Notes under the pieces: model-generated
What the model was told of the DNA's origin: nothing
The model's input: only the letters and a program-made list of their open reading frames with translations
Databases searched by the model: none
Program-made: the position numbers and the translations under genes
Shown here: positions 31,582 to 54,650 of the stretch, in pieces
Layout of the letters: each line of letters starts with the position of its first letter
How positions within the stretch are numbered: position 1 is the first letter of the stretch
Source: Thermococcus thioreducens
GTDB taxonomy: Archaea; Methanobacteriota_B; Thermococci; Thermococcales; Thermococcaceae
Length of the DNA stretch: 64,000 nucleotides
Direction of reading: 5' to 3'
Assembly (NCBI RefSeq): GCF_002214545.1
Contig: NZ_CP015105.1
Span: 1,364,001 to 1,428,000, forward strand

Positions 31582-31630
31582 TGGTTCAAGGCAGTGACTC
31601 CATAAAGACCATGTTCTCGTGAGGAAATCC

Positions 31631-31660
31631 TTAAATAGTTGCAACACGATTAGTCTAATC
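31631..31660 (+). promoter_or_regulatory. Leaderless promoter with 13-bp palindrome, first DUF234-type ATPase gene
   Basis: TTAAATAG (31631-31638) is 30 bases before ATG 31661, so transcription should begin at or near the ATG. The palindrome GATTAG-T-CTAATC fills 31648-31660, directly against the ATG. The second paralogue has GAGTAT-T-ATACTC at exactly the same place (53228-53240). TTGCAACACGA in between also matches TTGAAACGCGA of the other promoter. Confidence 0.65.
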
Positions 31661-33010
31661 ATGATGCAACAATTTGTGGACAGGGAGTACGAGATCAAAG
31701 CCTTAAGGAGGGCGTTTGAAAGCGAGAGGGCCGAGCTGATAGTGGTTTACGGCAGGAGGAGGGTCGGAAAGACAGCCCTCATTCTGAAGTCCGTCGAGGG
31801 GTTCAGGCACCTTTACTTCCTCGCGGACGAGAGAAGCGAGGGGGAGAACCTCGCGGAGTTCCGGAAAAAGGTTGCTGAGCTTCTAGGGGACGATGTAATA
31901 GCCCGTTCCGACCTTGACTGGGTCGAGTTGTTCCGCCTCCTTGGGGAGCGAGGAAAAGGAGTCGTCGTAATAGACGAACTCCCCTATCTCGTTGAGGGGA
32001 ATCCCGCGTTCCCCTCGCTTCTCCAGAAGGCGTGGGATTTGCACCTCCAGAACTCAAGGGTTAAGCTCGTGCTCGTGGGTTCCTCAATTGGCATAATGGA
32101 GAGGCTCCTCGGCCACAAGAGCCCCCTCTACGGGAGAAGAACCATGCAGCTCGACGTTAAGCCGCTGAGGTACTGGCACGTTGGGGAGTTCCTTCAGGGC
32201 TATTCTCCGGAGGACTGGCTGAGGGTCTACGGCGTAACCGACGGGATCCCTGCCTACCTGAGGCAGTTTGATGAAAGATTGTCATTCTGGGAGAACGTCG
32301 AGAGGCTGTTCCTTCAGAAGGAAAGCCCCCTCTACACCGAGGCGGAGTTCCTCCTCAGGCAGGAGTTCAGAGAGCCCGCACGGTACTTCTCGATACTCAA
32401 GGCCATAGCCTTCGGGAAGACAAGCTTCGGCGAGATAGTGAACTTCACGGGCTTCGACAGGGGAACTGTTTCGCGCTACCTCGACAACCTTGCAAGGATA
32501 AGGGCAATAACCAAAGTTCACCCGGCCTTCGAGCCCGAAAAGAGGAGGAACGCCCGCTACGAGTTCGCTGACAACTACTTCCGCTTCTGGTTCCGTTTCG
32601 TCTATCCGAACAGGGAGAGGATTGAACGGGAGCTCTATGGCGAGGTTATTGAGGACGTTAAAGTAAACTTCGACCACTACATGGGACGGGTCTTTGAAAC
32701 AGCCGCTGCCGATTTCCTCTGGAGAAAGTTCGCCTTCGAGAGAGGCGGGAGGTGGTGGAGCAGGGGCGAGGAGATAGACTTCGTGGGGCTGAAGAAGGGC
32801 AAAGCGTACTTCTTCGAGGTCAAGTGGAGTAAACTGACCTACCATGGAGCCCGCGAAGTCCTCAGAAGTCTTGAAAGAAAGGCGAGATACGTCAGAACAG
32901 GGACGAAGGAGATGCTGTTCGGCCTCATTGCAAGGGGTGTTGAGGGAAGGAAAAAGCTTGAAGAGAGAGGTTTCCTCGTCTTTGAGCTCGATGACCTGTT
33001 TGCCCTATAG
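31661..33010 (+). CDS. Archaeal ATPase with DUF234 C-terminal domain (first copy)
   Basis: A 449-residue PF01637-type ATPase of the STAND group. Walker A is VVYGRRRVGKTALIL, Walker B is VVVIDELPYLV, and LVLVGSSIGIMERLLGH is the sensor strand. Residues 215-290 form a winged helix (YFSILKAIAFGKTSFGEIVNF, then TGFDRGTVSRYLDNL), and the C-terminal DUF234 region (FADNYFRFWFRFV, WWSRGEEIDFVGL, FFEVKWSKL) looks like a restriction-endonuclease-like fold with EIDF/EVKW. Such genes are expanded in Thermococcales, and their function is unknown. ATG 31661 (or 31664) is set by the promoter layout. A close paralogue begins at 53241. The winged helix and the palindrome on the promoter suggest self-regulation. 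Confidence 0.9.
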   Translation: MMQQFVDREYEIKALRRAFESERAELIVVYGRRRVGKTALILKSVEGFRHLYFLADERSEGENLAEFRKKVAELLGDDVIARSDLDWVELFRLLGERGKGVVVIDELPYLVEGNPAFPSLLQKAWDLHLQNSRVKLVLVGSSIGIMERLLGHKSPLYGRRTMQLDVKPLRYWHVGEFLQGYSPEDWLRVYGVTDGIPAYLRQFDERLSFWENVERLFLQKESPLYTEAEFLLRQEFREPARYFSILKAIAFGKTSFGEIVNFTGFDRGTVSRYLDNLARIRAITKVHPAFEPEKRRNARYEFADNYFRFWFRFVYPNRERIERELYGEVIEDVKVNFDHYMGRVFETAAADFLWRKFAFERGGRWWSRGEEIDFVGLKKGKAYFFEVKWSKLTYHGAREVLRSLERKARYVRTGTKEMLFGLIARGVEGRKKLEERGFLVFELDDLFAL

Positions 33011-53107: not shown

Positions 53108-53210
53108 ATGGTTCGTTCTTCATTATCATAATCGTGACTGAACTCTTGAAAACCTTTCTCCTCTGAACGGACGACGGGTTCCAATGGGGAACTTCGGAGC
53201 TCCAAAACTT

Positions 53211-53240
53211 TTAAATAATTGAAACGCGAGTATTATACTC
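53211..53240 (+). promoter_or_regulatory. Leaderless promoter with 13-bp palindrome, second DUF234-type ATPase gene
   Basis: TTAAATAA (53211-53218) is 30 bases before ATG 53241. The perfect palindrome GAGTAT-T-ATACTC fills 53228-53240, directly against the ATG. Spacing is identical to the promoter of the first paralogue (31631-31660), but stem bases differ in paired fashion: G/C at one place where the other has T/A, and T/A where the other has G/C. Confidence 0.65.
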
Positions 53241-54650
53241 ATGAGTAGACAAAAGTTCATAGACAGGGAACGCGAACTGGAGTTCCTTGAGAGGACATAT
53301 TCCAGTGACAGGGCAGAATTTCTTGTAATCTATGGTAGAAGAAGGATAGGCAAGACTGAACTGCTTCTTCACTTTGCAAGGGATAAACCTCATGTCTACT
53401 TTCTGGCAACGGAAAAGCCCTACAGAGACAACCTGAAGGAGCTCCAGAGACTCCTGTCGGAATTTCTCGGGGACAGGCTCTTTGGGAAGATTGTCTTCGA
53501 GGACATAGACGAGCTCCTCATGGCGTTCGCCGAAAGAATTGGTGATGAGAGAGTGATCCTGATAATTGACGAGTTCCCCCTGCTGGTTGAGCACCGCCGC
53601 CCTGTTCTCTCGCTCCTTCAGAAGGCGTGGGATTTGAAACTGTCCGAGACAAGGATAATGCTCATCCTCTGCGGTTCAAGTGTCTCTGCGATGGAAAGCG
53701 AGGTTTTGGCCTATAAAAGCCCCCTCTACGGAAGGAGAACCGGGCAGTGGCGTTTGACGGAGATCCCCTTCTTCCACATCGGGGAGTTTCTTCCCGGCTA
53801 TGGCGTTGAAGAACTCGTCAAGGTTTGGGGCATCACTGGGGGAATTCCAGCTTATCTGCTCCAGTTCAGCCCAGAAAAAAGCTTCGACGAGAACGTGGTC
53901 AAGAGAGTTCTCTCCAAGGGAGCGTTTCTCTACGAGGAGGCGGAGTTTCTGCTCAGAGAAGAGCTCAGAGAACCGGCAAATTACTTCGCCATACTGCAGG
54001 CGATAGCGAGCGGGAGGAGCAGGTTCGGCGAGATAGTGAGCTCAACGGGTCTCGACAAGAGCCTCGTGTCAAAGTATCTTTCCGTCCTCCAGAGGCTTGA
54101 AATAGTTAAGCGCGAAGTCCCGGTAACCGCGACACCGAAGGAGGCGAGCAAGAGAGGTCTGTATTCCATAGCCGACAACTACTTCGCCTTCTGGTTCCGA
54201 TACGTGCTCCCGAACAGGAGCTACCTTGAGGCAGGCCTCGCGGAGGAAGTCTGGGAGCGCTCGAAGAGCGACTTTAACGCCTATATGGGTTCCGTCTTCG
54301 AGAAACTCACCAGGAATCCGGAAGTTTTCTTAAGGCTCACGAGCTTCCGCTTCACGAAGCTTGGCAGATGGTGGAGACAAGGCGAGGAGATTGATATCGT
54401 CTCTCTGAACGAGATGGAGAAGAGGGCTTTGCTCATTGAAGTCAAGTGGAAGGATCTGAGCGAGAGGGAGGCGAGAGGGATTCTGAAGGACTTAAAGAGG
54501 AAGGGCGAGCTTGTGGGACTGGATGGCTGGAGAAAGGCTTACGGACTGGTGGCTAAGAGTTTAGAAGGAAAAAAAGAGTTAAGAGCTGAAGGCTATCTTG
54601 TATGGGACTTGGAGGATCTCGATGGGCCAAGGTTCAAAGGGAAAGGATAG
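53241..54650 (+). CDS. Archaeal ATPase with DUF234 C-terminal domain (second copy)
   Basis: A 469-residue paralogue of the 31661 gene. Walker A is VIYGRRRIGKTELLLH, Walker B is ILIIDEFPLLVEHRRP, sensor strand LILCGSSVSAMESEVLAY. The winged helix is at residues 215-285 (YFAILQAIASGRSRFGEIVS, then STGLDKSLVSKYLSVLQRL). The C-terminal region has FADNYFAFWFRYV-like sequence (IADNYFAFWFRYVLPNRS), WWRQGEEIDIVSL and LLIEVKWKDLSEREARG, a nuclease-like EID/EVK motif. Function unknown; an NTP-driven regulator or defence role is possible. The ATG is fixed by the leaderless promoter with its palindrome. Confidence 0.9.
   Translation: MSRQKFIDRERELEFLERTYSSDRAEFLVIYGRRRIGKTELLLHFARDKPHVYFLATEKPYRDNLKELQRLLSEFLGDRLFGKIVFEDIDELLMAFAERIGDERVILIIDEFPLLVEHRRPVLSLLQKAWDLKLSETRIMLILCGSSVSAMESEVLAYKSPLYGRRTGQWRLTEIPFFHIGEFLPGYGVEELVKVWGITGGIPAYLLQFSPEKSFDENVVKRVLSKGAFLYEEAEFLLREELREPANYFAILQAIASGRSRFGEIVSSTGLDKSLVSKYLSVLQRLEIVKREVPVTATPKEASKRGLYSIADNYFAFWFRYVLPNRSYLEAGLAEEVWERSKSDFNAYMGSVFEKLTRNPEVFLRLTSFRFTKLGRWWRQGEEIDIVSLNEMEKRALLIEVKWKDLSEREARGILKDLKRKGELVGLDGWRKAYGLVAKSLEGKKELRAEGYLVWDLEDLDGPRFKGKG

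Follow-up and report, generated by a model that had tools for sequence, protein, structure and literature searches.

Nearly every copy of a large family of archaeal ATPase genes in the Thermococcaceae carries a dyad of its own, locked to its promoter, and it appears probable from sequence comparison that each of the encoded proteins switches off its own gene. Of the mechanisms considered, autorepression through such a private operator is the likeliest, and one in which we have reasonable confidence. Each ATPase gene would have one such operator, a dyad of 27-34 bp built from two or four inverted half-sites. Its centre would lie some 6 bp upstream of the point where transcription starts, and its arms would reach from the TATA box to slightly beyond that point. 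The binder would be the gene's own STAND/AAA-type ATPase, which has an internal winged helix and to which the DUF234 class adds a PD-(D/E)XK-like nuclease. Bound as a dimer or tetramer, it would block access of TBP, TFB and RNA polymerase and so keep its own level low, until a ligand or infection signal acting via the ATPase lifted the repression.

The window, a stretch of 64,000 nucleotides (contig NZ_CP015105.1, positions 1,364,001 to 1,428,000), comes from the genome of Thermococcus thioreducens, a single contig of 2.07 Mb. Two paralogous ATPase genes on its forward strand start with ATG at 31661 and 53241. The letters that the initial annotation gave for the two promoters proved correct on re-reading the sequence, and the palindrome that it described is confirmed and is larger than first reported. 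Upstream of the 31661 gene, the TATA box CTTAAATA (31630-31637, + strand), whose first base lies at the family's usual distance from the dyad centre, 24 bp, is followed by the left outer arm TTGCAACACGA (31639-31649, +) and by a perfect 13-bp inner palindrome, GATTAG-T-CTAATC (31648-31660, +), which abuts the ATG. These belong to a putative 33-bp dyad operator, GTTGCAacacGATTAGtCTAATCatgaTGCAAC (31638-31670, +), centred on T31654, in which 14 of the 16 arm positions pair. The dyad runs from the TATA box across the ATG and into codon 4, with its right outer arm, TGCAAC, lying within the coding sequence. The codons for MMQQF at 31661-31675 double as the right outer arm; related archaeal genes retain a GTTG...CAAC pair at the equivalent position, and the N-terminus of the protein may have been shaped here by the constraint of the operator.

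At the 53241 gene, the TATA box TTTAAATA (53210-53217, +) is followed by TTGAAACGCGA (53219-53229, +) and by the perfect inner palindrome GAGTAT-T-ATACTC (13 bp; 53228-53240, +), centred on T53234, 24 bp from the start of the TATA box. The 33-bp dyad score is poor here (9/16); only the 13-bp core is perfect and the outer arms are reduced to TTG/CAA flanks. These flanks are part of a putative extended operator, TTGAAACGCGAGTATTATACTCATGAGTAGACAA (53219-53252, +), which is kept in orthologues, and a third half-site, GAGTA, lies within the coding sequence at 53243-53247. The initial annotation had also picked out TTGnAACnCGA at both promoters; the letters are right, but the motif makes better sense as the longer dyad's left outer arm than as a separate element. 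As a box of its own, tolerating one mismatch, the motif is no more frequent in the window than expected by chance. For comparison with the score of 14 at the 31661 gene, none of the other window genes scored (44 of 45) has a 16+16 dyad above 11 near its start. When the 2.07 Mb genome is searched with either full window operator, the operator matches at one site, except that the second also gives a 3-mismatch match at the operator of a paralogue.

The 31661 gene (31661-33010, +) and the 53241 gene (53241-54650, +) encode proteins of 449 and 469 residues that are 46% identical and share the same make-up of ATPase_2, winged helix and DUF234 (PD-(D/E)XK-like) domains. Pfam ATPase_2 and DUF234 are above cut-off in both, and the PADLOC profile PDC-S27 covers most of each protein, with E values of 4.1e-50 and 1.9e-46 for the two; PDC-S27 is a candidate defence family, and an antiviral role is suspected for its members. 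A 2026 survey describes PDC-S27 and PDC-S01 as fusions of an ATPase domain with the PD-(D/E)XK superfamily that are enriched in archaea, and for most candidates of this type experimental validation is pending (PMC12988326). The Walker and nuclease residues (G32-R-R-R, G37-K38, D110-E111, E383, D385 and E400-V401-K402) are invariant in 27 of 27 diverse members. The nuclease-like DUF234 domain of the 53241 protein, which holds invariant E383, D385 and E400-V-K402, comprises residues 318-414 (54192-54482, +).

The winged helix-turn-helix of the 53241 protein (residues 245-310; 53973-54170, +) matches HTH_IclR above the cut-off. In the AlphaFold2 model of this protein (mean pLDDT 93.4) helices at 245-256, 262-269 and 273-285, the last being the third helix, precede a two-stranded wing. 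In the 31661 protein the HTH_IclR match is weak and below the cut-off, and the corresponding segment (residues 241-284; 32381-32512, +), with the recognition helix FDRGTVSRYLDNL, was placed by alignment to the modelled paralogue. The solved folds nearest to the 53241 model are 2QEN and 2FNA, with DNA-bound Orc1/Cdc6 next, and a sequence search against solved structures gave similarity to ORC4 alone, and that weak. Not all winged helices of STAND proteins bind DNA. The Pfam match of the 53241 protein and the model indicate that the product carries a winged helix, a predicted DNA-binding domain.

The pattern extends well beyond the two window genes. The window's genome has 12 clear ATPase_2 genes, nearly all with a promoter dyad or alternating half-sites, each different, and 61 Thermococcaceae genomes yielded 124 DUF234 ATPase genes in about 15 groups. 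The best 16+16 dyad score of these 124 paralogues, which include related and hence non-independent genes, averages 12.24 versus 8.73 (sd 1.01) in dinucleotide shuffles, and 89 of the 124 score at least 12 versus 0.7% of shuffles. The dyad centre was picked to maximise the score and the shuffle control picks likewise, which makes it a fairer yardstick than the permutation test. When left and right arms of group consensus sequences were compared, 12.9 of 16 positions matched within a group and 7.0 of 16 between groups, and none of 20,000 permutations attained the observed match. Each paralogue group retains its own dyad, in which both arms change in concert, and the initial proposal of covarying arms at the promoters of paralogous winged-helix ATPases is borne out by this matching and by the domain evidence. 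That proposal would have been undermined by paralogues lacking a palindrome at this place; nearly all of the others have one at the promoter. Operator similarity is 0.81-0.97 where the proteins are more than 60% identical and 0.52-0.57 below that, while sequence upstream of the TATA box stays at a background of 0.40-0.43 up to 90% protein identity. Compensating palindromes at the promoters of winged-helix ATPases fit autoregulation. Two trivial origins were rejected: a chance palindrome by the shuffles, the arm permutations and the scores of the other window genes, and a leftover of recent duplication because the sequence upstream of the TATA box is unrelated and orthologues retain their dyads across deep divergence.

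The operator travels with its gene. Nine orthologues of the 31661 gene (62-100% protein identity) lie in about six neighbourhoods and all keep the core GATTAG[T/A]CTAATC. Of the 61 genomes, 23 contain the 34-bp operator of the 53241 type, each in a single copy, and by coordinate comparison and inspection 21 of these occurrences are at ATPase starts and 2 at broken copies. Both observations point to the gene's own product as the binder. The two window operators would be specific to their own genes, as they are nearly single-copy in their own genome, though dyads of the 31661 type and of the L003 type also occur in other genomes without the gene. The initial annotation went further and supposed a set of mutually insulated autoregulators. 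The distinct dyads of the groups fit autoregulation, but some paralogues of the same genome have common core half-sites, so that insulation among them is incomplete: the 53241 gene and its paralogue L004 both have a GAGTAT-type core, L004 being the 3-mismatch match to the 53241 operator, and GATTAG is common to the 31661 gene and L009, though at different spacing. Over the full 33 bp, DUF234 paralogues of this genome are mostly 42-57% similar, with a few pairs at 63-72%.

If the winged helix reads the half-site, its sequence should follow that of the operator, and here the evidence is suggestive only. We compared protein distance with operator distance in sliding windows along 14 DUF234 groups and 56 SSO1545-like proteins. 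In the latter, of all protein windows the one containing the recognition helix takes the top rank when the outer arms are compared (0.27-0.29) and comes third or fourth when the inner arms are (0.23); other windows follow closely and reach similar values. In the SSO1545-like protein L178 the ATPase domain resembles group 2 (0.54-0.58) more than group 1 (0.46-0.49), whereas its recognition helix is nearer to one branch of group 1 (0.60-0.73) than to group 2 (0.33-0.60), and its inner half-site is that of this helix-matching branch.

Dyads that outlast the ATPase are not predicted by a pure self-operator. In five genomes without an adjacent ATPase, solo L003-type dyads lie directly past the stop codon of tiaS (L386 1711-1741, L387 1742-1772, L389 1896-1926, L391 1753-1783 and L392 1755-1785). 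Elsewhere this locus holds both dyad and ATPase, as in the window's genome and several others, or neither, as in several more; in one pair of an occupied and an empty locus the two sequences become alignable again no more than about 10 bp from the dyad on one side and from the stop codon of the ATPase on the other. Six genomes (L454, L455, L456, L459, L460 and L461) have a 31661-type dyad without an intact gene, most of these loci being occupied by the intact ATPase in relatives, and some retain up to about 25 remnant codons. The lost segments start either at the dyad itself or no more than about 25 codons from it, and end near the stop codon. The search for losses was keyed on dyads, so that losses that took the dyad are under-counted. 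In three genomes (L398, L399 and L400) a single ATPase gene is preceded by two L003-type dyads with 53 bp between them.

These observations could mean that the ATPase-nuclease forms a cassette that is mobile or protects itself, and that the dyad is chiefly the recognition site at which the protein cuts, inserts or excises, with promoter control being secondary. The nuclease-like domain with its invariant E-x-D and E-V-K, the differing neighbourhoods in which operator and gene are found together, the remaining dyads and the paired dyads would all suit such a site. However, the dyad stands in the TATA register in most genes, and the search could find only those losses that had kept a dyad; we regard this reading as unlikely. 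A combination, in which the dyad serves both as self-operator and as the DNA address by which the protein tests for its own site in self-recognition, homing or excision, is a tentative proposal that we also think doubtful.

The persistence of dyads in genomes without the cognate ATPase would also be expected if they were bound by another host regulator, or by several. Against this, the dyad sequence tracks the ATPase paralogue group rather than the genome or the neighbourhood, a single genome contains many unrelated half-sites, and dyads go with the family in bacteria too, which together make binding by other regulators quite improbable.

Autorepression by the gene's own product accords with the position of the dyad. 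In this family a symmetric element overlaps the core promoter, and the distance from its centre to the first TATA base has a median of 24 bp and is 22-25 bp in 73% of genes, the same 24-bp register being found for the SSO1545-like ATPases; in one DUF234 group it is instead about 31 bp. The distance from the centre to the ATG varies from -2 to 21 bp. A dyad spaced from the TATA box with a variable distance to the ATG argues for a DNA operator rather than an RNA hairpin. In Thermococcus onnurineus some 27 bp separate the middle of the TATA box from the start site downstream (PMC5316973), which would place the dyad centre near -6 and the left arm outside the transcript; judging from the TATA register and this published spacing, the two arms are not both expected in the RNA. 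The initial description of the starts as leaderless fits both window genes, by prediction, but not the DUF234 groups with a later ATG, which have a Shine-Dalgarno-like GGTG in the right spacer of the dyad.

The dyads might instead be operators for self-activation. The mycobacterial STAND regulator IniR, which is related to SSO1545 in its ATPase domain, is a DNA-binding activator with a single target operon; it differs in that this is another operon, and it has a LuxR-type DNA-binding domain and a putative sugar-binding domain, with no nuclease described (PMC5760070). Since the dyad fills the space from the TATA box to past the start, a bound protein is expected to obstruct the initiation complex, and activation is very unlikely. 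The conserved RNA hairpin at the mRNA start, controlling translation or decay, that the initial annotation offered as its alternative was rejected as highly improbable, for although the 31661 region with its left arm would reach -13.1 kcal/mol if fully transcribed, the dyad's register is set by the TATA box and not by the ATG, the left arm of the two leaderless genes should lie upstream of the start site, and pairing is lost in a transcript starting at the ATG.

Similar elements are found beyond the DUF234 genes of the Thermococcaceae. Most of the SSO1545-like genes (105, in 11 groups) have strong dyads of repeated half-sites. AAA_14 ATPases (L196-L225) have nested inverted repeats around the TATA box and not at the start site, for example TTGGACggcgtaCAGTACAAGggtttataaagggTTGTACTGtatgtaGTCCA in L209, as judged by visual inspection and from dyad scores that had no shuffle control. 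A 414-residue ATPase type with GRRKTGKT (L393, near 696400 of the window's own genome, L394, L396 and L401) has its own operator variant, resembling TATAACCNCCATTATNATAACGGTGGTTATA. Outside the Thermococcales, shuffling gave p<0.05 for a dyad near the start of the DUF234 gene at 13 of the 19 archaeal loci and at 24 of the 47 bacterial ones; the bacterial dyads are mostly found 25-45 bp before the start codon. Upstream of the Methanomicrobiales DUF234 gene L384, whose match starts at 713, is CTAATCtaGATTAGtaCTAATCatGATTAG, which is nearly the operator of paralogue L009.

The nearest solved folds are those of the archaeal ATPases SSO1545 (2FNA) and PABY2304 (2QEN), at 22-24% identity; the Thermococcaceae relatives of these that we studied lack a DUF234 domain and have dyads in the same promoter register. 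Orc1/Cdc6 proteins likewise combine AAA+ and winged-helix domains, with paralogues each specific for a cis element beside their own gene (PMC3936714), but those elements are replication origins rather than a promoter dyad and the parallel is architectural only. The PDC-S27 and PDC-S01 proteins have the same make-up of ATPase and PD-(D/E)XK as the window proteins, and private operators, which are a feature of the present genes, are not mentioned in the available part of the survey (PMC12988326). We found no prior description of palindromic self-operators in this ATPase family in the open-access literature, a scope outside which most subscription journals lie. In toxin-antitoxin operons and with the controller proteins of restriction-modification systems, a potentially harmful protein is kept low by a DNA-binding component acting at its own promoter. 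In the present genes one polypeptide would serve as both binder and nuclease-like effector, and the family would, if this is true, provide a single-polypeptide self-repressing nuclease, unlike those two-gene systems.

There are thousands of ATPase-nucleases of the PDC-S27 and PDC-S01 types, and in the literature consulted most such candidates are without an experimentally established function. If the operator of each can be read from its own promoter, every member would gain a predicted DNA ligand, making binding, regulation and the inducing signal testable, and the dozens of paralogues in related genomes would form a natural panel for winged-helix specificity. Should the retention of dyads after gene loss prove real, the dyad must do more than serve self-repression; were it both operator and address, these genes would be a large family of candidate defence elements, each a single gene and turning over fast, with private addresses that outlive the gene.
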